Assembly (NCBI GenBank): GCA_029881255.1
Contig: JAOUMY010000004.1
Span: 209,313-273,312 of the forward strand
DNA: 64,000 nucleotides
Direction of reading: 5' to 3'
From: Gammaproteobacteria bacterium
GTDB taxonomy: Bacteria; Pseudomonadota; Gammaproteobacteria; S012-40
Made by a program: the position numbers and the translations under genes
Shown here: positions 9,429-64,000 of the stretch, piece by piece
Layout: every line of letters begins with the position of its first letter
Numbering within the stretch: the first letter of the stretch is position 1
Notes under the pieces: model-generated
What the model was told of the DNA's origin: nothing
What the model saw: the letters and a program-made list of their open reading frames with translations, nothing else
Databases searched by the model: none

Positions 9429-10229
9429 ATGCTGGTCTTTCCCAATATAAATCCTGTTGCTCTGGAACTGGGCCCAGTGGCTATACACTGGTATGGAATT
9501 ATGTATGTGTTGGGTTTTTTAGCCGCCTGGCGATTAGGATTGTTTTATGCTCGGCGCCCGTATTCCGTTTGGACAGGACAACAGGTTAATGATTTAATCT
9601 TTTACGGCATGCTTGGTGTCATCCTGGGTGGACGTATTGGTTATATTTTGTTCTTTGATCTGTCCTCATTCATTAGCAATCCTGTCACGATGCTCCAAGT
9701 TTGGCAGGGTGGGATGTCATTTCACGGGGGATTGCTTGGCGTAATTATCGCCATGTTGTTGTTCGCGCGACGCAACAATAAATCGTTTTTCACAGTTGCC
9801 GACTTTGTCGCTCCCTTGGTGCCCTTAGGTTATTTCGCAGGGCGAATAGGTAATTTTATCAACGGAGAATTGTGGGGCAGGGTGGCACCGGCTGAATTGC
9901 CCTGGGCGATGGTTTTTCCCCATGTTGACCAATTGCCCCGTCACCCATCCATGCTATACCAGGCGCTATTGGAGGGGCTGGTTTTGTTTGCCCTGTTGTG
10001 GTGGTTTACGCTACAGCGGCGCCCGAGTATGGCGGTGTCCGGCGTGTTTTTGATCGGTATGGGTGGCTTTCGCATTTTTAATGAGGGATTTCGAGAGCCT
10101 GATGCACATATTGGTTATATTGCGTTTGATTGGTTTACCATGGGGCAGTTGTTATCTGTGCCGATGTGGGTCATTGGCGTTATACTGTTCTGGCTGGCCT
10201 ATCGCCCGGCGAAATCTGCTGTTCGCTGA
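9429..10229 (+). CDS. lgt: Prolipoprotein diacylglyceryl transferase
   Basis: Inner-membrane enzyme that moves diacylglycerol from phosphatidylglycerol onto the lipobox cysteine, the first step of lipoprotein maturation. The 266 residues form about seven membrane segments. Signature motifs are present: IHWYGIMYVLGF, the functionally important His99 in GGMSFHGGL, and AGRIGNFINGELWGR (137-151), which carries key Arg and Asn residues. At least five lipoprotein candidates in this window would be substrates. It precedes thyA as in many gammaproteobacteria. A divergent second member of the family lies at the window end (63612). Confidence 0.96.
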   Translation: MLVFPNINPVALELGPVAIHWYGIMYVLGFLAAWRLGLFYARRPYSVWTGQQVNDLIFYGMLGVILGGRIGYILFFDLSSFISNPVTMLQVWQGGMSFHGGLLGVIIAMLLFARRNNKSFFTVADFVAPLVPLGYFAGRIGNFINGELWGRVAPAELPWAMVFPHVDQLPRHPSMLYQALLEGLVLFALLWWFTLQRRPSMAVSGVFLIGMGGFRIFNEGFREPDAHIGYIAFDWFTMGQLLSVPMWVIGVILFWLAYRPAKSAVR

Positions 10230-47073: not shown

Positions 47074-50000
47074 ATGACTTTGATAAGGTTTTTAAAACAG
47101 TTCTTGTTTGTGTCGATTGTGACGGTTGTAATAGCCGGTTGCGACGGCGACACATTTACTGCTACTGAAATTCCTCAGCTAAAGCCTGACGTTATTCCCA
47201 CTCTGGCGGGAATACAACTATCTCGTGGTGAGTTGTCGCCGGAATTTAATTCACTCGTATTCTCCTACAAATCCACATTGCCAAACAGCGCGGACAGTAT
47301 TTCGATTACACCTTTTCTACCGTCGGGCGCCGTTATTGATGTGCACATAAACGGGAATGCTGCTGATTTGGAAAACGGCAATACGGTATCGCTGGCTGAA
47401 GGCGATAATGTAGTCAGCATAACGCTGAAAAAGAAAAATGCCGTGTTACGTAGTTATAACCTGACGATAACTCGTGAAACAGTGGCCAATGTCAATTTGA
47501 CCTCTCTGTCACTGAGCACTGGAGAGTTGTCTCCCTCATTTAACACCGCAACAACCGAATACAGCGCAAGCGTTACGTCGGATGTTATGGAGATGATGTT
47601 GACGGCAAACACGGAAGACCCGGAAGCATCATTGACCATCAACGGGGTAGTGTCTCAGAGTGGAGTTGAAAGCGCGCCGGTATCATTGATAGAAGGCAGC
47701 AATATTATCAATGTTGCGGTGACCGCTAGCGATAGGGTGCAACAAAAAATCTATCGTATCGTGGTAGTCCGAGCGAAGGATCCTGCCAACTCGGCCTATC
47801 TGATGAGCCTGTCGCATTCAGCCGGAAGTTTAGATCAAACTTTCAGCTCCAACCTGACGTATTACTCCAGTACTGTGGCCAATAGTGTAAGCAGTACCAG
47901 CATTACCGCAACTGCGATGAACAGCAATGCGTTCATAAGTCTTAATGGTGCGACGATATTATCTGGGGTAGCCAGTACAGCACAGAATCTGGCAGTTGGT
48001 GACAACCTTTTTACAATATCCGTCAGCGCAAGTGGTAACGATACCTTAAACTATGTATTAGTTATTAAGCGATTGGCCAGCGCAAATGCGGATCTGTCAG
48101 ACCTAAACCTTTCTACTGGGGCAATTTCACCGATTTTCAGTTCCGCCACGACGACATACACACAGACTGTTAGCAATAGCGAAGCAAGTGTAGCGATTAC
48201 AGCGATTTCTGCACATGCGGACGCGACTCTATCAATAAATGGCAGCAGCATTTCCTCAGGTGTGGCAAGCACTTCCCTGGCGTTAAATGTGGGTGATAAC
48301 ATTTTCAATGTACAAGTATTGGCTCAGGACAAAACCGTTAAAACGTATAGTATTGTTGTCACGAGAGAAGGAAGTAGCAATGCCGATCTTTCCGCGCTGA
48401 GTCTGTCTTCTGGCGCATTCGATCAGGCGTTTGATCCAGGCACGCTAGCCTATACCCAAACGGTATTGAACGCGGTCAATTCGACAACAGTAACCGCCAG
48501 CGTCGCTGATAGTGCAGCAGCATTGAAGGTCAATAATGTTAGCGTTCCTTCTGGCGCTGCCAGTACGCCAATCAGCCTTGCAGAAGGACAGAATACCGTT
48601 AATGTCACCGTGGTAGCGCAGAATGGATCAATAAAAAATTACTTTATCGTGATCAATCGAGATTTGGCATCTCAAAGTAGCGATGCCACGCTTGCGGATC
48701 TCAGCTTATCTTCCGGTTCACTGGATACTTCCTTTGCGCCGCTGAGTCTCAACTATACACAGACAGTCACCAATGCGACATCATCATTAACAGTAACGCC
48801 GACAGCCAGTGATTCCAATGCCGTTGTGGAGGTTAACGGCAGTGGCGTAACTTCGGGGACTTCGAGTACCAGCATTCCCTTAAGTATCGGTTCAAATGTC
48901 ATTTCCGTGCCAGTAAAAGCCCAGGCGGGAAATATCAAAACATATACTATTGTGGTAAATCGTCTTGGCAGTAGCGACTCGAGCCTGTCAACGCTGACGT
49001 TCAGCACTGGAGGCTTAACGCCAATATTCAACAGCTCGACGCTCTCGTATACACATGTGGTTAGCAATGCCACAACATCGCTGACTGTAACACCAACAGT
49101 CAACGATGCGAACGCCAAAGTCAGAGTGAATGACATTTCGCTGACTTCCGGCAGCACCAGTGCGCCAATCGCCTTGAACGTCGGAGAAAACATCGTAACC
49201 GTATTGGTGATTGCACAGGATAACTCGACCAGTACATACACAATTGTCGTTTCTCGCCAGGGTAGTAGTAATGCGGATTTGAGTTCATTGCTTGCGTCAA
49301 CCGGCGGATTTAGTCCGTCGTTTGACTCTGCCACAACTTCATATACGCAGTCGGTCGCGTTTGCAACAACAAGTGTGGATATTACGCCAACGCTTGCGGA
49401 TGCCAATGCGTCGGTGACAGTAAATGGATTTGCGGTGACCTCAGGTGGCACAAAGACTGTTGTGCTTGCCGTAGGTGTAAATGTTATTAATGTGATTGCC
49501 AAGGCTCAAGATGGTACGTTAAAGACGTATACCATGACCATTACCCGAGCAGGAAATAACAATGCGGACCTCAGTGCATTAGTCCTGAGTACTGGCGCTA
49601 TTAGTCCGGCATTTGATTCTGCAACCTTGGCTTATACGCAATCGGTATCAAACGCGGTCACTAATGTTGATGTTATAGCGACCTTGGCGGATACCAATGC
49701 AACTATGACGGTGGAGAGTTACGCGCCAAGCTCCGGGACAACCGTCAGCGTCCCCTTGCTCGTCGGCGCAAATATCATTGACGTAACGGTAACCGCCGAG
49801 GATGGCTCTACGGTCAAGGTATACCAGGTAACGATTACTCGCGCACAAAGTAATAATGCAAACTTGTCGAATATTACCTTGTCCAGCGGCGCATTGGACC
49901 AGGTGTTTTCGAGCGCTACAACAACATATACTCACACCGTTTCAAATATACAGAGCACGATTTCCGCAGTAGCCATCTTGGAAGATGGTTCGGCCTCGAT

Positions 50001-53000
50001 AAAGATAAACGGCGTGAGTGTTGCGTCAGGACAGGCGAAATCCATTAGTTTGGTGGTTGGTGACAACGTCGTGACGTTTGACGTCACAGCACAAGATGGT
50101 ACGACTACAAAAGCATATATGCTTACTGTTACACGGTTGAGTAATGTTGGTGATTTATCTAATTTGACCGCCTCAACCGGTCCATTTGATCAGGCTTACG
50201 ATCTCAGTGTTCATACGTTTACACAAACAGTTGCCAATACCGTAACGAACGTAACGATTACTCCCACAGCAATGAATAGTGCTGCGTCAATCACGGTCAA
50301 TAGCTTGCCAGTACTTTCCGGAACCGCAAGCGATCCAATATCACTGAGTGTCGGCAGCAATGTAATCGATGTCGACATGATTGCGCAGGATGGTTCGTTA
50401 CACAAAGATGTCATTGTCATCGACAGGCTGGGTAGTAATAATGCGCAACTGTCGGATCTCTTACTTGATAGTGGCGCATATACACCCGTCTTCAGTAATA
50501 CAACGTTTGTTTATGATCAAACCGTCAGTAGCGCAACGACTAGTGTCACTGTTACGCCGACAGTCAGCGCTCCAACATCAACGGTCAGCGTCAATGGTGT
50601 TGATGTGACATCGGGCACTGCCAGCGCGCCAATAAATTTGAAAATCGGCGAAAATACGATTTATGTTTTGGTGAGTGCGCAGGACGGAAGCAAACAGCTC
50701 TATCGTACAACTATCACCCGCACCGGAAGTACAGACAATACCTTGTCCGCACTGAGCGCTTCTACCGGTGTTTTTGATCAAGTGTTTGATGCAGCAACAT
50801 TGCTCTATACCCAAACGGTTTCTAATGCTGTGAATAACGTTTCCATTACGCCTACAGTAAACGATGCCAATGCCACAGTGACGGTCAACGGAATAACGGT
50901 GACATCAGGCTCTGCCAGCACGGCTATCGCGCTGGGAATAGGCGATAATGTCATTCCAGTTGCTGTAACCGCGCAGAATGGCAGTAACAAAGTCTATACT
51001 GTCGAGATTAGTCGTCAGGGTAGTCTGGATGCAGATTTAGCGAGCATGAGTTTCTCTACGGGCGCTCTTACACCGGTTTTTGATCCTGCTACGACAGCAT
51101 ATACCCAACTGGTGAGCAACGCGACGACATCGACAGATATCACGCCAACAGTTAACGATGCCAATGCATTTGTTAGCATAAATGGCGCGCCGGTAACATC
51201 GGGAACAGCGAGCACTCAGACATTGAATATCGGTACGACCGCCTTTAGTGTGGTGGCTACCGCGCAACAAGGAAATACCAAGACCTATACCGTTAATATC
51301 ACGCGTAAGAGTACGAATGCGGATCTACGCAATCTGGTATTGTCAGTAGGCGGCATGGATCAGGCATTTGACGCGAATACCACAGCCTACACACGCACAG
51401 TGGGTTTTGCTACGACTAGCCTGACAGTGACGCCAACGGTCGATGATACAAACGCTACACTCACCGTAAATAGTATTGGCGTCTCTTCTGGGACAGCAAG
51501 CGGGGCGATCGGGCTGGGATTAGGTGATAATGTTATCACTGTTGTGGTAACGGCACAGGATGGCAACACCAAAACATATAGTATCACCGTTACCCGGGCG
51601 TCGAATGTTGCAACGCTTTCAGGTCTTAGTACTTCAAGTGGCGCAATCAGTCCTGTCTTTAGTTCAGTTACGCTAGCCTATACGCAAACCGTCGCCAATG
51701 GCATTACAACGACTACTGTCACACCGACGGCGACTGACTCAAATGCCACAATTGAGGTCAATGGCGTACCGGTAAGCTCCGGCTCGGCAAGCGGCGCAAT
51801 CGGTCTGAATATTGGGGAAAACGTAATTACTATTGCCGTTCGTGCTCAGGACAATACGCTCAAAAGTTATTCGCTAGTTGTGCGTCGCCTGGGTAGCAAT
51901 GACGCGACATTAGCAAGTCTCACTGCATCCAGCGGTGCTTTCGATCAGACGTTCGATCCGGCAGTAACAACTTATACCACTACCGTGCCGTTCACTACGA
52001 CGAGTGCGACGGTCACACCAACGGTTAATGATTTGAATGCAACAGTTAAAGTAAACGCCGTGTCAGTAACATCTGGCACGGCAAGCGCGCCGATGTCGCT
52101 GAGTCTCGGGGACAATATCTTTAGTGTTTCCGTCACCGCGCAGGACGGAACCTTAAAGACTTATACGGTCATCATGACCCGTTCTGGCAGCAGTAACGCA
52201 ACGCTGTCTAATCTTGTCGCTTCTACCGGCGTGTTCCTACAGGCATTTAGTTCAGGTACTACAACGTATACACAGACCGTAGCTGAGACAACGACGAATG
52301 TAAGCTTGACGCCTACTGTCAGCGATATCAACGCAACTGTTGCTGTGAACGGTACGAGCGTGATTTCGGGCACGGCAAGTCCATCTATTAATCTGAGTAT
52401 CGGGACCAATATCATCAATACGGTTGTCACGGCTCAGGATGGAAGCGTTAAAACCTATGTTGTGATAATTTTCCGCAATGGAAGTGGTGACGCTACCTTG
52501 TCTGGGTTGACTGCATCGCTTGGCGCCTTCGGTCAGACATTTGATCCGGCGGTGACGGTGTACACCAAGACAGTAACCTTTGGTGTAACCGGTACAACGA
52601 TTACGCCAACGACCACTGATGCAAATGCGACTGTCAAGGTGAATGATGTTGGCGTGGTTTCAGGTACGGCGAGTGGCAATATCGGTCTTGCGGTAGGTGA
52701 TAATATCATTTCAGTCATCGTTACTGCCGCTGATAATTCGACCAAGACTTATACTGTTATCATTACACGTAATGCGAGTAATAATGCAGACCTAAGCAGC
52801 CTGACAATAACGGCGGGCACATTGAGTCCATCATTTAGTAGTGCGACGACCAGCTATACAGCCACCGTTTCCAATGCAACGACGAGTCTCAATGCCTCAG
52901 CAACTATCAGCGATAGCGGCGCGACCATGACGATAAATAGTATTGCCAAGGCATCAGGGGAAATTCTAGCGGTTGCGCTAAATGTTGGCGTGAACAATAT

Positions 53001-54777
53001 CAACTTTGTAGTGACCGCATCGGATTCCAGCACCAGGACTTATACGGTTGCGGTTACGCGTCTAAGCAATAATGCGAATCTGGCGTCGCTTAGTGTTACA
53101 GGTGGGGCCATCGATCAGACTTTTGATCCAGCGTTAACATCGTATACCGTCACTGTTGGCTATCTCGTCAACTCTCTACAGGTGACGGCAACTGTCGAAG
53201 ACACCGGCGTGTCATCGATGACGATGAATAGCGTGGCCTTGAGTGACGGCGTTGTGTCTTCGAATCTGGTTAGTCTCGCAGTCGGTGCGAATACCGGCGC
53301 CGTTAGCCTGATGGTTACTGCACAGGATGGTACGACGAAAACCTATACCATCGACGTCGCACGTGATGATGTGAGTACGTTTGCGCAGCAGGCCTACGCC
53401 AAGGCGAATGATGCTGCATCGGCCAATCCTGGCGCCACTTCGGCCACCTATGAAGCGCTGTCAGCAGGTTCGAGCATGCCGTTGGCCGCTATGAAGGTAG
53501 CCATCTCAGGAAACTACATGGTGGTCGGTAATCGCGCGGCCTATGGCGATCAGGGTATTGCATACGTGTATTATCGTGACCCGACAACCAATAACTGGAG
53601 TCAGCAGGCCACCTTGCTTGGCAATAACACAGAGGCAGGCGATCATTTCGGCGCCGCCGTTGCGATTGATGGCGATACGATTGCTATCGGCGCACCAAAA
53701 GAACGTGGCGGCATAGGCGGTATAAACGCGCCAGACAATAACAGTAATCCTGCAAGTTATGCGGCCGGCGCTGTTTATGTATTCCAGCGTAGCGGAACGA
53801 CCTGGATACATCAGGCCAAATTGAAAGAACCCGACGGCAACATCAATATCAAGTTCAATGAATTTGGATCCTCAGTGGCAGTATCTGGCAATGTAGTCAC
53901 GGTCGGCGTGCCACTGGAGGAGAGTAGCAGTACCGTCATAACGGATATGAATGTCAGCGCAGCGCCAATAGACAAACTCGCTGCTGAATCCGGCGCTGTC
54001 TATGCGTTCTTGCGTACTGGAACGACCTGGGCCTATGAGGCGCACATAAAAGTATCCAGCGGTGTTGGTGGTGATCGCTGGGGACATGATATTGCGATGG
54101 ACGGAAATACGCTTGCTGTAAGCAGCATTTTGAATAACGGAGGCACCGGTGCGGTGGCAGTATTTGTGCGTGATTCGCTTACTGCGACCTGGACGCAACA
54201 AGGCGGTATACTGACGGCCCCCGCGCCATCCTCAAATGATTTGTTTGGCTGGTCTGTCGATATCAATGCGAATACCATCGTCGTTGGCGCTCCGCTGGAA
54301 GATACTACGGCGGCAGATTCCGGTGCAGTTATGGCTTATTTGCGTACGGGCACAACCTGGGCATGGCAGGCTAATATTAAATCCAGTGTTGCGGATGCCG
54401 GTGACCACTTCGGTAAAGATGTCAGTCTCGCAGGAGATACCTTGGTAGTCGGTGCGCCAATGGAAGACAGCAATGCGATGGGAATTAGTGGAATGCCAAA
54501 CACTAATGACGATATCAATAACCCGAGTTCAACCGCGGAGCACGGTGCCGCAAACATATTTATACGCAGCGGCACAACATGGACGCAAACTGCCTATATC
54601 AAGGCATATAACACCGGACAGACAGATAAGTTTGGCGCTGCGGTCGCAATCGATGGTGATACGGTTGGTATTGCGGCCCCTCTGGAAGATGCGGATCATG
54701 TATCGGTCTCTAATCCGCAGCCGGCGACAGACAATGACTTAAGAAGTAATAGTGGCGCGGTCTATATCTTCAAATAA
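47074..54777 (+). CDS. Giant lipoprotein: 21 cadherin-like repeats plus FG-GAP propeller
   Basis: A 2567-residue surface-protein candidate. A signal sequence ends in the lipobox VIAGC (Cys23). From about residue 42 to 2095 it has 21 tandem repeats of about 98 residues, each following L(S/A)xLxxS(T/S)Gxxx(P/Q)xFxxxxxxYxxxV ... VxVNGxxVxSGxAS ... LxxGxNxIxVxVxAQDGxxKTYxxxxxR. This is the cadherin-like beta-sandwich family. The last 460 residues form seven FG-GAP-like blades (GDHFGAAVAIDGDTIAIGAP and six relatives, with SGAVYxFxR strands), predicting an integrin-alpha-type seven-bladed propeller at the distal end. It likely forms a long stalk with a binding head. It stands alone. Confidence 0.9.
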   Translation: MTLIRFLKQFLFVSIVTVVIAGCDGDTFTATEIPQLKPDVIPTLAGIQLSRGELSPEFNSLVFSYKSTLPNSADSISITPFLPSGAVIDVHINGNAADLENGNTVSLAEGDNVVSITLKKKNAVLRSYNLTITRETVANVNLTSLSLSTGELSPSFNTATTEYSASVTSDVMEMMLTANTEDPEASLTINGVVSQSGVESAPVSLIEGSNIINVAVTASDRVQQKIYRIVVVRAKDPANSAYLMSLSHSAGSLDQTFSSNLTYYSSTVANSVSSTSITATAMNSNAFISLNGATILSGVASTAQNLAVGDNLFTISVSASGNDTLNYVLVIKRLASANADLSDLNLSTGAISPIFSSATTTYTQTVSNSEASVAITAISAHADATLSINGSSISSGVASTSLALNVGDNIFNVQVLAQDKTVKTYSIVVTREGSSNADLSALSLSSGAFDQAFDPGTLAYTQTVLNAVNSTTVTASVADSAAALKVNNVSVPSGAASTPISLAEGQNTVNVTVVAQNGSIKNYFIVINRDLASQSSDATLADLSLSSGSLDTSFAPLSLNYTQTVTNATSSLTVTPTASDSNAVVEVNGSGVTSGTSSTSIPLSIGSNVISVPVKAQAGNIKTYTIVVNRLGSSDSSLSTLTFSTGGLTPIFNSSTLSYTHVVSNATTSLTVTPTVNDANAKVRVNDISLTSGSTSAPIALNVGENIVTVLVIAQDNSTSTYTIVVSRQGSSNADLSSLLASTGGFSPSFDSATTSYTQSVAFATTSVDITPTLADANASVTVNGFAVTSGGTKTVVLAVGVNVINVIAKAQDGTLKTYTMTITRAGNNNADLSALVLSTGAISPAFDSATLAYTQSVSNAVTNVDVIATLADTNATMTVESYAPSSGTTVSVPLLVGANIIDVTVTAEDGSTVKVYQVTITRAQSNNANLSNITLSSGALDQVFSSATTTYTHTVSNIQSTISAVAILEDGSASIKINGVSVASGQAKSISLVVGDNVVTFDVTAQDGTTTKAYMLTVTRLSNVGDLSNLTASTGPFDQAYDLSVHTFTQTVANTVTNVTITPTAMNSAASITVNSLPVLSGTASDPISLSVGSNVIDVDMIAQDGSLHKDVIVIDRLGSNNAQLSDLLLDSGAYTPVFSNTTFVYDQTVSSATTSVTVTPTVSAPTSTVSVNGVDVTSGTASAPINLKIGENTIYVLVSAQDGSKQLYRTTITRTGSTDNTLSALSASTGVFDQVFDAATLLYTQTVSNAVNNVSITPTVNDANATVTVNGITVTSGSASTAIALGIGDNVIPVAVTAQNGSNKVYTVEISRQGSLDADLASMSFSTGALTPVFDPATTAYTQLVSNATTSTDITPTVNDANAFVSINGAPVTSGTASTQTLNIGTTAFSVVATAQQGNTKTYTVNITRKSTNADLRNLVLSVGGMDQAFDANTTAYTRTVGFATTSLTVTPTVDDTNATLTVNSIGVSSGTASGAIGLGLGDNVITVVVTAQDGNTKTYSITVTRASNVATLSGLSTSSGAISPVFSSVTLAYTQTVANGITTTTVTPTATDSNATIEVNGVPVSSGSASGAIGLNIGENVITIAVRAQDNTLKSYSLVVRRLGSNDATLASLTASSGAFDQTFDPAVTTYTTTVPFTTTSATVTPTVNDLNATVKVNAVSVTSGTASAPMSLSLGDNIFSVSVTAQDGTLKTYTVIMTRSGSSNATLSNLVASTGVFLQAFSSGTTTYTQTVAETTTNVSLTPTVSDINATVAVNGTSVISGTASPSINLSIGTNIINTVVTAQDGSVKTYVVIIFRNGSGDATLSGLTASLGAFGQTFDPAVTVYTKTVTFGVTGTTITPTTTDANATVKVNDVGVVSGTASGNIGLAVGDNIISVIVTAADNSTKTYTVIITRNASNNADLSSLTITAGTLSPSFSSATTSYTATVSNATTSLNASATISDSGATMTINSIAKASGEILAVALNVGVNNINFVVTASDSSTRTYTVAVTRLSNNANLASLSVTGGAIDQTFDPALTSYTVTVGYLVNSLQVTATVEDTGVSSMTMNSVALSDGVVSSNLVSLAVGANTGAVSLMVTAQDGTTKTYTIDVARDDVSTFAQQAYAKANDAASANPGATSATYEALSAGSSMPLAAMKVAISGNYMVVGNRAAYGDQGIAYVYYRDPTTNNWSQQATLLGNNTEAGDHFGAAVAIDGDTIAIGAPKERGGIGGINAPDNNSNPASYAAGAVYVFQRSGTTWIHQAKLKEPDGNINIKFNEFGSSVAVSGNVVTVGVPLEESSSTVITDMNVSAAPIDKLAAESGAVYAFLRTGTTWAYEAHIKVSSGVGGDRWGHDIAMDGNTLAVSSILNNGGTGAVAVFVRDSLTATWTQQGGILTAPAPSSNDLFGWSVDINANTIVVGAPLEDTTAADSGAVMAYLRTGTTWAWQANIKSSVADAGDHFGKDVSLAGDTLVVGAPMEDSNAMGISGMPNTNDDINNPSSTAEHGAANIFIRSGTTWTQTAYIKAYNTGQTDKFGAAVAIDGDTVGIAAPLEDADHVSVSNPQPATDNDLRSNSGAVYIFK
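47197..53365 (+). repeat. Array of 21 tandem ~294-bp coding repeats
   Basis: Within the giant lipoprotein gene, 21 head-to-tail units of about 291-303 bp encode the cadherin-like domains. Units differ in DNA sequence but keep recurring phrases such as ACxGTxAAxGATGCxAATGC and GCxCAGGATGG. Such arrays can change copy number by recombination. Confidence 0.85.
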
Positions 54778-59773: not shown

Positions 59774-60262
59774 CTGCGCCCTCTGTCATGGAAACTCTAC
59801 TGAGTCTTAAATCTACTCGACAAAACGGTATCTGATACCGAGCATATATTTTCGTGTATAGCGCTGAGAAACCCTATATACAGAAGTCAAAACTGAGCCT
59901 ACCCTCGCAAAACAAGGAACAAGGAACAAGGAACAAGGAACAAGGAACAAGGAACAAGGAACAAGGAACAAGGAACAAGGAACAAGGAACAAGGAACAAG
60001 GAACAAGGAACAAGGAACAAGGATCGGGGACTGTGTATCTATTCTTGCGAACCTTTTTACGAATCCTATTTTCCATATTTGCAGCCCGCTGAATTTCCAG
60101 CCACTCGCCAAATGTAACTAAGCCATAAAAAGCCTGATTTATACCCCTTCTATTACCTGTCGCCAAAGGTGAACTTTCTTTCGAGAATACCGATACATAC
60201 AGATAGAGAAGGCATTTTTGCCTGGTTCTGCACAAGGCTAGACAAGAGGCGCATAGGGAAAT
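59774..60262. other. Intergenic region holding a heptamer array
   Basis: About 490 bases between the DMT permease and the Slam-like gene. It contains the 16-copy AACAAGG array (59911-60022) and otherwise no gene. Open frames across the array on both strands are artefacts of a repeat that has no stop codon in any frame. No clear terminator for the permease or promoter for the next gene is visible by eye. Confidence 0.7.
59911..60022 (+). repeat. 16-copy tandem heptanucleotide repeat
   Basis: AACAAGG is repeated 16 times without interruption over 112 bases. Seven bases is not a multiple of three, so 21 bases encode the same seven residues (NKEQGTR) in every frame. It is a non-coding simple-sequence array about 240 bases before the Slam-like gene. 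Similar heptamer arrays are well known in cyanobacterial genomes. Confidence 0.97.
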
Positions 60263-61594
60263 ATGTCAGGAAATTCGATTTTTAAGGCGGGAAGCTCACT
60301 TTTTGCTTCAATACTAATCGGACTGGTTTTCATCGGGCCATGGGAGACGATTGCCCAGGCGGATGATAAGGCGACCATTTTTCAGGCCAAGGCATTGTTA
60401 GACAACGGGCAGGCAAAGGGGGCCTATCGTTTATTACTTCCACTTGAGAGTGAGTATGCCGGAAATCCTGAATTTGATTATCTTTTAGGTATTTCTGCGT
60501 TGGACGCAGATGTTCCAAATTATGCGGTTATTGCACTCCAGCGGGTATTGGCAATGGAGCCTGCATTTGTCGGCGCGCGTGTTGATCTCGCCCGTTCTTA
60601 TTATTATCTCGGTGAGTTTTCTACAGCGAGGGAAGAGTTCGAGGCCATCATGCAGTACAACCCGCCAAATAAGGTCAGAGAATTGGTGGTGTTTTATCTG
60701 GACGAGATCTTTCAGCGACAGAAAGGCCCACGCTACCGAGTGTCTTATGCATTGGACGCGGCGTTCGGTAGTGACAGCAATGCCAATAGTGCTACCGATC
60801 TTACGACTTATAAAGATTTCGCATTATCCGAACAAGCGCGTAAGTCACCTTCGGCATATGGACTCGGTGGACTTACCGCGAATCTCGCCTTTCAGGCCGG
60901 GGCGCGCTCGACCTTTTACATGGGCGCAGATATTCATTATCGATACAACGTCAGTGCGCCATTTGTGAATAACACGATTGCCAGCGGCAATATGAGCGTC
61001 AATTATTTCGATCGATATTTCAGTATGAATGTAGGGGCAAAGGGATTCTATTCACGCATCGGTGAATACGAAAGCTATACCGGCATGGCCACGGGGCGGT
61101 TACAGTTTTCCTTGAGTCGTCTACTAAAAGCCACGTTTATGGGGCGAGCCGGAGGTTCCGAATTTTTCGAAGAATTGAGCACACAGGACAATTTTAATGG
61201 CCTGGCCGGTGTTGGTTTGTCGACAGTTCAGGATATCGGCATATTGCCAAAAACCAATTTGATGTGGATTTATGGTCGGTCATACGCCCGCCATCGAGAT
61301 TCTTCAGAGTATGACAACGAAACGCGAGGATTACGCGCAAGTGGTACAAAGCACCTGACTGCAAAGTGGCGTTTGGTCGGTGCGGGTGGCGCTATCTGGA
61401 CCCGGTATCTCAATCTGTTCCAGGGAGTGCCCCGCGAAGAAAGGAGGCTTGACGCGATGGTTGGCGTCGAATGGAAAGCCACGAAACGTACTCTAATCAA
61501 AGCCGGTGTTTCGTACATTTACAACAGCAGCACCCAAGCTATCTATGCCTATGACAAACTGGATTACAACATCGGTTTGCGGAGGGAATTCTAA
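60263..61594 (+). CDS. Slam-like TPR plus outer-membrane barrel protein
   Basis: A 443-residue exported protein. A signal peptide ends ETIAQADD. An N-terminal TPR region follows (about 35-155; KALLDNGQAKGAYRLLLPLE, ARVDLARSYYYLGEFSTARE). From about residue 165 there is a beta-barrel beginning RYRVSYALDAAFGSDSNANS and ending YDKLDYNIGLRREF, with the terminal Phe of outer-membrane proteins. This layout and the DSNxN turn match the surface lipoprotein assembly modulator (Slam/DUF560) group, which moves TbpB-like proteins to the cell surface. The stop overlaps the FecR gene start by one base, so the two are translationally coupled and a shared function is likely. Confidence 0.8.
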   Translation: MSGNSIFKAGSSLFASILIGLVFIGPWETIAQADDKATIFQAKALLDNGQAKGAYRLLLPLESEYAGNPEFDYLLGISALDADVPNYAVIALQRVLAMEPAFVGARVDLARSYYYLGEFSTAREEFEAIMQYNPPNKVRELVVFYLDEIFQRQKGPRYRVSYALDAAFGSDSNANSATDLTTYKDFALSEQARKSPSAYGLGGLTANLAFQAGARSTFYMGADIHYRYNVSAPFVNNTIASGNMSVNYFDRYFSMNVGAKGFYSRIGEYESYTGMATGRLQFSLSRLLKATFMGRAGGSEFFEELSTQDNFNGLAGVGLSTVQDIGILPKTNLMWIYGRSYARHRDSSEYDNETRGLRASGTKHLTAKWRLVGAGGAIWTRYLNLFQGVPREERRLDAMVGVEWKATKRTLIKAGVSYIYNSSTQAIYAYDKLDYNIGLRREF

Positions 61595-63423
61595 TGAAGT
61601 CTGTCAAGCTGATGTTTGCTATCGGTCTTATGTCTATTCTCGTGTTAAATGTGGCCATCGCCGCCGAAGAAAAACATCCTGTTGGTACCGTGGTATTTGT
61701 ACTCGGTGATGCGTTGGCTCGTGGCATCGAGGGTACGGGTAGAAAACTTACTCGCAAGGCACCTGTCTATGCACTGGACACGATTCATACCAATCAAAAG
61801 AGCCAGGTGCAGATTCGCTTTAAGGACAACGCCTTCATTTCGGTACGCCCAAATAGCAGCTTTACTATTGACGCATATAGCTTTAATGATACCGAAGAAA
61901 ATAAACAACACTTGAATCTGGTCAAGGGAGGTTTTCGCGCAATTACTGGACAAATCGGGAAGATGAATAAGCAGGCTTTTAAACTAAAAACTCCAGTGGC
62001 TACTCTCGGCATACGCGGTACCGATTTTACCGTAATGTATTGCCGATCCGATTGTGGCGAAGGTGAGCGAGGTGATACAAGCGCGCAAAACGGATTGTAT
62101 GTTGGCGTAATCAGTGGTGGAGTTACGCTCCAGAATGAACTGGGAAACATTAACATCGGCGCCAATGAATACGGCTTTGTAAATGCGCTGGGTGATTTAC
62201 CCAAGACCTTACGACAGGCACCTAGCTTTTTAATGTTTGATCGGACTCAGCGAGACGTTAGAAAAATTCAGGAACCAGAATCACGGCGCACCCGAGAAAA
62301 TCCACCCGTCGGTAAGGAAGCCAATGAAGGGAAAAACGAATCGTCAACCCAGACGACAACATTTTCACCCGAACCAAGTGCAGTCATCGAATCCATTGCC
62401 GAAGATGTACGCAAACAAGCGGCCTTAACTTCGCCATCACTCGGTGCCGCCGACAGTAGTTATGCACTGTTTGGAGACATGATGGAAAGTCGCTTCGGTT
62501 CTGATGGAAATGTGCTGCTACCGTCTACGGAAAATGAAACAGTTTCATCGACCGCAGAGAGAGAGACAGTTGGGGAAGGTCTTCTTGGAATGTTAGAGCA
62601 GGCAATGTCCAGTGATAGCGCCAACAATCTTGATGATCCTTTGAACACTATTCCAGGCGTGTCGACCAATCAAAACCAGGCTTTTTCTATGGCGACCGGC
62701 TCTGTCGGTGGACGGATAGGCAGGCAGGTGATTAATCATAGCGAGGCTCGCGTCACAGGATATCGCGACAATCAGGTCGATGGCGTATTGGCTAATACCA
62801 CCAATGATGCCTATTTGTTTACACAGACGCAGTACCTGTTTGACGGCACGCAACTGGATCTGGGTTACGATGCCACCACTGGATTACGCTGGGGGCGGTG
62901 GGCAAGTGGAACCGTTACGTTTGAAGGCGAAACAGCCGACCCTTATTACACTCGTATCAAGGATCAGATGCATTGGGTCGCCGGAGACGAAAACAGCATG
63001 ATGCGTAGTCTACCGATTAGTGGAACGGCGACATACAGTCTCTATGGTGGCACGGCACCCACAGACAGCGCGGGCAATGTCGGCCAACTGGGCAGCGTGA
63101 CCTTAACCGCAGACTTCAATGCGCCTGCAATGGTGAGCAATGCGACAGTTGAACTCACCATCGATAACCAAAACTGGAAGGGTGAAGCGTCCACAATGCC
63201 GATACAAGCTGATACCGCGACGTTCTCGGGTCTTATGCAAGTCAATGTTACCTCGGACACCTCTGCGGGAAATCCAGGACTCGGCCATATCAGTGGTTTC
63301 TTCGTCGGCGGTGATAGTAGCACGGTGCCTAGCGGTGCAGGGATTAGTTATGAAATGACCGCTACATCAAATGGCGCCGCAAACACTGTGTCAGGTTCCG
63401 CTGCCTTGCGTAAGGATCCATAA
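61594..63423 (+). CDS. Secreted FecR-domain protein with beta-rich C-terminal domain
   Basis: 609 residues. A type I signal peptide ends NVAIAAEE and no lipobox cysteine is present. A FecR domain follows (about 30-190) with VRPNSSFTIDAYSF, VKGGFRAITGQIGK and LKTPVATLGIRGTDF. Two cysteines lie in VMYCRSDCGEG. A polar linker (about 235-400) leads to a Gly/Thr-rich beta domain (about 400-605; GLRWGRWASGTVTFEG, GNVGQLGSVTLTADFN, GHISGFFVGGDSSTVPSG, SYEMTATSNGAANTVSGSAA). This last part resembles the C-terminal eight-stranded barrels of Slam substrates such as TbpB. Coupled to the Slam-like gene, it is its likely cargo. That pairing is an inference. Confidence 0.82.
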   Translation: MKSVKLMFAIGLMSILVLNVAIAAEEKHPVGTVVFVLGDALARGIEGTGRKLTRKAPVYALDTIHTNQKSQVQIRFKDNAFISVRPNSSFTIDAYSFNDTEENKQHLNLVKGGFRAITGQIGKMNKQAFKLKTPVATLGIRGTDFTVMYCRSDCGEGERGDTSAQNGLYVGVISGGVTLQNELGNINIGANEYGFVNALGDLPKTLRQAPSFLMFDRTQRDVRKIQEPESRRTRENPPVGKEANEGKNESSTQTTTFSPEPSAVIESIAEDVRKQAALTSPSLGAADSSYALFGDMMESRFGSDGNVLLPSTENETVSSTAERETVGEGLLGMLEQAMSSDSANNLDDPLNTIPGVSTNQNQAFSMATGSVGGRIGRQVINHSEARVTGYRDNQVDGVLANTTNDAYLFTQTQYLFDGTQLDLGYDATTGLRWGRWASGTVTFEGETADPYYTRIKDQMHWVAGDENSMMRSLPISGTATYSLYGGTAPTDSAGNVGQLGSVTLTADFNAPAMVSNATVELTIDNQNWKGEASTMPIQADTATFSGLMQVNVTSDTSAGNPGLGHISGFFVGGDSSTVPSGAGISYEMTATSNGAANTVSGSAALRKDP

Positions 63424-63611
63424 GCAACACAAGTAGCGTGCTTCAAATAATTGACATCATAATCCTCGCCAAGGAAGATAGAAGCATAAGCCTCGCGAGG
63501 GAATGCGTCCGTTGAATTTTCTCAATACCCATGCTTTCCCACGAAACTGTTCCTACAGACGTTATAGCGGATCAGCAATTAGCGCATAGCTATTGTTAAC
63601 GGGAGTTGTGT

Positions 63612-64000
63612 ATGGCATTTCCATTTCTAGGTGATGTGTTCAATCATTTTTTCGGTCTCGACTGGAATCTTCCTATACCGATGTTTGGTCTGTTTGTCGC
63701 AACTGCGATAGTTCTCGCTACTTATGTTGCCCGTAAAGAAGTAGAACGTTACCAGGGGCTCTCGCTGTTAGGCAGCGCTCGGGTGATCGTTTCGAAAACG
63801 GGCGAAACACAATGGATTCCTGTTCATGGCGTCATAAGCGATCTTGCTCTGGTATGCGCGATTGCCGGGATAGTTGGCGCGAGAGTTTTTCATATTCTTG
63901 AATATCCGTCTGACTTTCTCGGTGACCCTATGAGTATGATATTCACTCAGGGTGGTTTTTCCATTTATGGAGGCCTGGTATTTGGCTTTGTCGCCGGCAT
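63612..64000 (+). CDS. Second Lgt-family protein, N-terminal part
   Basis: Open from ATG 63612 to the window end, 129 codons visible. It begins MAFPFLGDVFNHFFGLDWNL, then PIPMFGLFVATAIVLATYVA, and contains VGARVFHILEYPSDF and FTQGGFSIYGGLVFGFVAG. These line up with GGRIGYILFFDLSSF and WQGGMSFHGGLLGVI of the canonical Lgt at 9429. Tyr119 replaces the functionally important His. It also has an inserted hydrophilic stretch (about 41-72) between the first helices. It could be a prolipoprotein transferase with altered specificity or an Lgt-like enzyme with another substrate. It lies 188 bases after the FecR gene. Confidence 0.82.
   Translation, partial: MAFPFLGDVFNHFFGLDWNLPIPMFGLFVATAIVLATYVARKEVERYQGLSLLGSARVIVSKTGETQWIPVHGVISDLALVCAIAGIVGARVFHILEYPSDFLGDPMSMIFTQGGFSIYGGLVFGFVAG

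Follow-up and report, generated by a model that had tools for sequence, protein, structure and literature searches.

Translocators of the type 11 secretion system (T11SS), the family of the Slam proteins, have been described as outer-membrane proteins (OMPs) with 14 barrel strands (PMC8406197). TbpB, fHbp, HphA and HpuA are among their known substrates (PMC12282271, PMC9090332). For the majority of T11SS OMPs no cargo is known or predicted (PMC12282271). Outside cluster 1 there are nine further sequence clusters, whose members come mainly from bacteria of water and soil and included no characterised protein (PMC8406197). Here we describe a gene pair in a 64,000-nucleotide stretch of gammaproteobacterial DNA (assembly GCA_029881255.1, contig JAOUMY010000004.1, positions 209,313 to 273,312), hereafter the window. 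It consists of a Slam-like translocator gene and the gene of a protein that has an N-terminal FecR domain and a C-terminal barrel. It is highly likely that the two form a translationally coupled translocator–cargo unit of the type 11 (Slam) family, in which the cargo barrel is recognised and threaded out.

Our best reading is a T11SS branch with FecR-barrel cargo, a combination not described in the T11SS literature examined. FecR is not mentioned in PMC8406197 and PMC12282271, the supplementary tables of which lay outside this search and may name it. In addition, none of the papers searched joins FecR with DUF560, Slam, TXISS or T11SS, again with supplementary tables not covered. A sequence-only reading of this DNA had already noted that it knew of no description of a cargo combining a FecR domain, a type I signal and a missing lipobox, which agrees with the lack of FecR in the two papers. 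It had also taken secreted haemophilin for an exception among Slam cargos. This was an understatement, as soluble signal peptidase I cargos make up the whole subclass TXISS-1B (PMC8406197).

A Slam-like translocator and its FecR-domain neighbour

The translocator gene (60263–61594, plus strand) belongs to the SlipAM/DUF560 branch and encodes 443 amino acids, with a signal peptide, a periplasmic TPR domain (residues ~35–154) and a barrel (~158–442). The TPRs are recognised by Pfam TPR_19 (E 1.5e-7). An AlphaFold2 model built from 49 sequences places TPR helices at 35–154 and has 14 barrel strands by DSSP, with a mean pLDDT of 92; this is the strand number given for T11SS OMPs in PMC8406197. When a barrel-only profile was compared with six canonical Slams by hhalign, the match had 99.7% probability (E 1e-26, 286 columns), and the aligned stretch includes both the DSN.N motif where the barrel starts and its N-SN-Y end. 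PF04575 (SlipAM) is matched by 31 of the 49 aligned homologues, the best at 3e-16, and the Slam TPR model TPR_Slam (PF24575) by 16 of them. Thus, by its sequence relationships, the window translocator is a divergent member of the Slam/T11SS family. It shares with Slam1 and Slam2 (PF04575, PF24575) the periplasmic TPRs, a 14-strand barrel that aligns end to end and an adjoining cargo gene. Unlike them, it stands in a distinct, mostly environmental branch, has a FecR-barrel protein as partner and has diverged too far to be recognised by the Pfam model on its own.

The cargo gene (61594–63423, plus strand; 609 amino acids) overlaps the translocator gene by one base: the stop codon TAA (61592–61594) and the cargo ATG (61594–61596) together read TAATG (61592–61596), and GGAGGG lies about 7 bp 5' of the ATG. 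The protein begins with a Sec signal peptide of the signal peptidase I type (61594–61665, plus strand; MKSVKLMFAIGLMSILVLNVAIA-A; judged by eye from the sequence), which has no lipobox cysteine and leaves no N-terminal cysteine. The signal peptide stands directly before the FecR domain (61675–62205, plus strand; Pfam FecR, E 7.3e-14), which contains an RGTD motif. A low-complexity linker of about 175 residues (62206–62730, plus strand) leads to a C-terminal domain of about 230 residues (62731–63420, plus strand), the predicted T11SS recognition domain. Among the cargo homologues the linker varies widely in length and in some is nearly nil.

In an AlphaFold2 model from 47 sequences the C-terminal domain consists of an 8-strand barrel with a small handle (pLDDT 87, pTM 0.84). 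In the VIA fold comparison the top row is NHBA (Z 14.4; 2.4 Å over 143 residues), followed by OmpX (Z 13.1), fHbp (Z 12.8) and more NHBA and fHbp entries. Lower rows contain TbpB (Z 11.3), HphA (Z 11.2; 20–22% identity over the structural match) and HpuA (Z 11.0), and LbpB is also near. Sequence searches point the same way at lower strength. The only PDB matches of the barrel were TbpB (E 0.13) and GNA2132/NHBA (E 3.5), both weak. The NCBIfam model slam_lipo (NF041636) matches the window barrel with E 3.7e-6, at 27 bits against a curated cut-off of 80. PF01298 (TbpB_B_D) matches 2 of 47 cargo homologues (best 6e-4), the window cargo not being one of them. With scores under the cut-off and no lipobox, the cargo falls outside both curated families. 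A profile made from FecR-cargo barrels only also found an open reading frame (ORF) beside a strong PF04575 gene (locus L058; E 1e-6), and Pfam assigns TbpB_B_D and FHBP_C to this ORF.

The window protein has three features expected of a T11SS cargo: a C-terminal 8-strand barrel with handle, a Sec signal peptide and an adjoining T11SS OMP gene. With the surface lipoproteins TbpB, fHbp, NHBA and HpuA it shares the C-terminal handle and barrel fold, but those proteins are lipidated and the N-terminal part of the window cargo is a FecR domain. It resembles the soluble TXISS-1B cargos haemophilin, HphA and HrpC in being a predicted signal peptidase I cargo with a single C-terminal barrel. These have no FecR domain, however, and no TonB-receptor or haem genes were seen beside the window pair.

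What the sequence-only reading had observed about the pair is confirmed: the one-base overlap, a TPR-plus-barrel protein of Slam type, and a cargo with type I signal peptide, FecR domain and no lipobox that ends in a small barrel like those of Slam substrates. Two findings could have overturned it, a C-terminal domain unlike TbpB or a translocator barrel outside the Slam family. Structure prediction gave a TbpB-like fold, and the translocator barrel groups with Slam both by hhalign and through the matches of its homologues. The PF04575 search it had proposed succeeded at the level of the family and not for the single window sequence. Its interpretation is supported in part: the translocator and the unlipidated FecR-barrel cargo stand, and the inclusion of a neighbouring Lgt-family gene does not (see below).

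Pairing across genomes

Among 80 named loci (L numbers) selected by the FecR domain, a Slam-like gene lies directly upstream of 36 of 37 usable barrel-bearing FecR proteins, as compared to 9 of 34 barrel-less ones (Fisher p 1.6e-10). The lone exception, L154, is an ORF-boundary artefact: a Slam-like gene is present there, outside the distance limit applied. When FecR was not used for selection, a FecR gene was found immediately downstream in all 34 genomic matches to the Slam-like profile of at least 300 bits and in 15 of 24 weaker ones. PF04575 itself was also used to retrieve 30 gammaproteobacterial loci; 19 of them have an adjoining FecR gene, and those without it are mainly canonical Slams. 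Note that these samples are not fully independent: some loci occur in several of them and the profile was built mostly from FecR-paired loci. The Slam-like profile was matched at E 1e-30 in 68 of 369 sampled gammaproteobacterial genomes (~18%), and the source genome has three Slam-FecR pairs. A scan of genome contigs with a single FecR protein found no relative; an alignment as the query found relatives. The distance matrices of the two partners are correlated (Mantel r 0.65; partial r 0.46 given the FecR domain). The Slam-FecR pair is a real, conserved two-gene unit, and both its family membership and the pairing are well supported.

Several observations weigh against a barrel-recognising translocator and its cargo. 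PF04575 does not match the window translocator alone at E 1, nor did it in a search of the genome at 1e-3. As the FecR-paired homologues G020, G048 and G046 exceed the curated PF04575 cut-off in whole-genome searches, we take this as a limit of sensitivity. For the cargo barrel, Foldseek gave no single match below E 0.001. The high rank of OmpX in VIA is a further caution, since 8-strand meander barrels generally look alike. The structural case rests not on Foldseek but on the VIA Z-scores, on which families rank at the top and on the links at sequence level. The Mantel correlation may partly reflect species phylogeny. Finally, for some Slam-like genes the FecR partner has no detected barrel (e.g. 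L158, L172), which may mean that FecR is the more constant of the two partner domains.

The cargos vary considerably in architecture. Two FecR genes follow one translocator at some loci. Proteins with two or more tandem barrels, up to about 1900 residues long, occur in Gallionellaceae, Oceanospirillum and deltaproteobacteria. FecR proteins of 1800–1900 amino acids were seen behind Slam-like genes in L128 (4953–10418), L138 (2075–7690), L127 (4905–10598) and L153 (4962–10598); the first three have 3–5 tandem barrel matches, and none was detected in the L153 protein, which is cut by the locus end. The Gallionellaceae and Oceanospirillum cargos resemble the multi-TbpBBD surface proteins of Sphingomonas and Psychrobacter, which have 2–3 handle-barrel copies but carry proline-threonine repeats in place of FecR and are mostly lipidated (PMC12282271). 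At the other extreme, short FecR proteins with neither a barrel nor an adjoining barrel gene follow the Slam-like gene in L172 (1967–2728), L173 (8717–9481) and L158 (4914–5726).

Apart from sporadic CHASE2-cyclase and tRNA methyltransferase-type genes, no conserved neighbourhood was seen beyond the pair. CHASE2-guanylate cyclase genes adjoin 6 of about 45 Slam-FecR loci (e.g. L086, 6759–9020), and a tRNA methyltransferase-type gene lies upstream in 7 loci. The cyclase genes, together with the name FecR, could indicate a periplasmic signalling pair, in which a ligand-sensing FecR protein has a porin-like barrel protein as its partner and nothing is exported. We consider this improbable. The cargo does not look like a FecR anti-sigma regulator: the signal peptide directly precedes the FecR domain, there is no cytoplasmic anti-sigma domain and no sigma factor was recognised beside the pair. 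Moreover, the barrel protein is in the Slam family and its partner carries the Slam-substrate fold.

If the two genes are a translocator and its cargo, the near-obligate pairing supplies much of the environmental branch (gamma-, beta- and deltaproteobacteria) with a proposed cargo, and a class of FecR proteins that are named like regulators gains a likely secretion route. Such simple two-gene pairs from environmental bacteria would also be test cases for cargo recognition by Slam.

Proposed export of the cargo and possible roles of the FecR domain

The assignment of the pair as translocator and cargo is based on family membership, the predicted folds, the strict pairing and the missing lipobox. 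Recognition, translocation and final location of the cargo we infer from known Slam/T11SS biology. By this analogy the 443-residue protein would span the outer membrane with its 14-strand barrel, and its TPR domain would lie on the periplasmic side. The 609-residue FecR protein would cross the inner membrane via Sec and be cleaved by signal peptidase I. The translocator would then recognise the C-terminal 8-strand barrel and the cargo chain would be threaded out, so that at least the barrel ends up extracellular. Where the FecR half comes to lie is the point on which two sub-variants of this explanation differ.

The whole FecR protein may be exported in the manner of the soluble haemophilins and act as a fully secreted or surface-bound effector, with the FecR domain binding a ligand, the surface or a polymer. 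We give this variant about an even chance. The FecR half matches the leptospiral surface proteins LipL45 and Lsa33, which likewise have a FecR domain in a surface protein. They differ in that LipL45 is a lipoprotein, and neither LipL45 nor Lsa33 matched in a C-terminal barrel. We know of no Slam partner for either of them. Full export is also favoured by the precedent of a T11SS class whose soluble cargos are processed by signal peptidase I (PMC8406197), but no ligand-binding motif and no TonB-receptor neighbour were found, and gene neighbourhoods show no conservation outside the pair.

Alternatively, only the barrel end is exported and the FecR domain folds in the periplasm, where it holds the unlipidated cargo in the pore or on peptidoglycan, much like the retention module of LapA-type adhesins. 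A profile of the FecR-domain family has one significant sequence match in the PDB, 5ix9 (E 1e-4), which was deposited as 'Antifreeze protein' and which we take to be the N-terminal part by which the ice adhesin of Marinomonas primoryensis is anchored. In many FecR cargos the same first 60 residues of the domain are matched by the LapA retention model NF033682, with 22–39 bits. Retention modules hold adhesins by remaining in the periplasm, and they serve both type I and type Vb systems (PMC13090378). Taken together, the two matches and the periplasmic position of retention modules suggest an anchor. Two more observations are in line with it. First, no cargo appears to have a lipid anchor: a genuine lipobox before the FecR domain was found in none of 50 paired homologues, the one flagged case being upstream of the start Met. 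Second, a LysM domain precedes FecR in several barrel cargos: L046 (4028–6250; 4.1e-7), L175 (2176–4155) and L178 (1909–3996).

We nevertheless regard a periplasmic FecR anchor as possible but doubtful. The NF033682 scores are below the cut-off of 50 bits (22 bits in the window cargo), and the similarity to the LapA/Marinomonas module stops at the first half of the domain. In addition, many proteins without a translocator contain a FecR domain, and some cargos have nearly no linker. The LapA and Marinomonas adhesins have type I secretion, a LapG site and RTX repeats. In the sequence of the window cargo neither a LapG site ([TAP]AAG) nor an RTX region was found, and it does not qualify as a LapA-type retained adhesin.

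The upstream repeat and neighbouring genes

Between an EamA gene and the Slam-like gene lies an AACAAGG tandem repeat (59911–60023) of 16.1 perfect copies (100% match, TRF), 240 bp before the translocator gene. The window contains no other tandem array, and the genome no second place of this kind. We counted simple sequence repeats (SSRs) with a unit of 4–9 and at least 7 perfect copies in 794 kb, comprising the named loci and the window. There are three: a 4-bp unit repeated 10 times in L102, a 7-bp unit repeated 11 times in L153 and the window array. All three lie within 500 bp upstream of a Slam-like gene, while the 700-bp upstream regions of Slam-like genes make up about 4% of this sequence. 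In a further 57 loci the sole SSR of that length is downstream of the Slam-like gene, in the FecR gene region, and most Slam-FecR loci have no SSR. In the intergenic gap that holds the array no sigma-70-like promoter was found, and an Rfam search of the window gave no match. The known parallel is in Haemophilus influenzae, where heptanucleotide repeats precede the hmw adhesin genes. The position of the AACAAGG array suggests a candidate phase-variation element, which we offer as a lead.

Slam-like genes split into two frames were seen beside a FecR cargo gene in L160 (1091–2421) and L049 (5347–6220); a pseudogene, a sequencing error and a phase-off state are candidate explanations. One could imagine a lipid-free way of holding T11SS cargo at the surface, where the Slam-like pore exports the barrel, FecR (sometimes with LysM) serves as a periplasmic plug or peptidoglycan anchor, and the heptanucleotide repeat switches expression. 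As a whole this picture is speculative and rather unlikely.

Downstream of the cargo gene, at a distance of about 180 bp and on the same strand, a divergent Lgt-family gene (63606–64000, plus strand) runs past the window end; in the genome it encodes 316 amino acids (LGT, E 9e-44). This position had led the sequence-only reading to consider a lipid-modification step in a three-gene cassette, with an unrelated neighbour as its other option. A conserved Slam-FecR-Lgt order was not found: an Lgt gene is downstream of the pair in 0 of 34 paired loci with at least 1.5 kb of downstream sequence. The genome has two better-scoring Lgt genes, three of the family in all; one of them is in the window (9453–10193, E 1.4e-76) and the other on contig C3. 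Because the gene is absent at the 34 paired loci and two better-scoring Lgt genes exist, we judge it to be an unrelated neighbour. Gene order, the two other Lgt genes and the missing lipobox led us to reject it as a functional partner, and an Lgt-dependent, lipid-modified surface cassette of three genes has next to no likelihood.

Elsewhere in the window, 47074–54777 encodes a protein of 2567 amino acids that carries 21 or more Cadherin-like domains and, at the C-terminus, an FG-GAP region. The sequence TVVIAGC at its N-terminus resembles a lipobox, which makes it a candidate giant surface lipoprotein.

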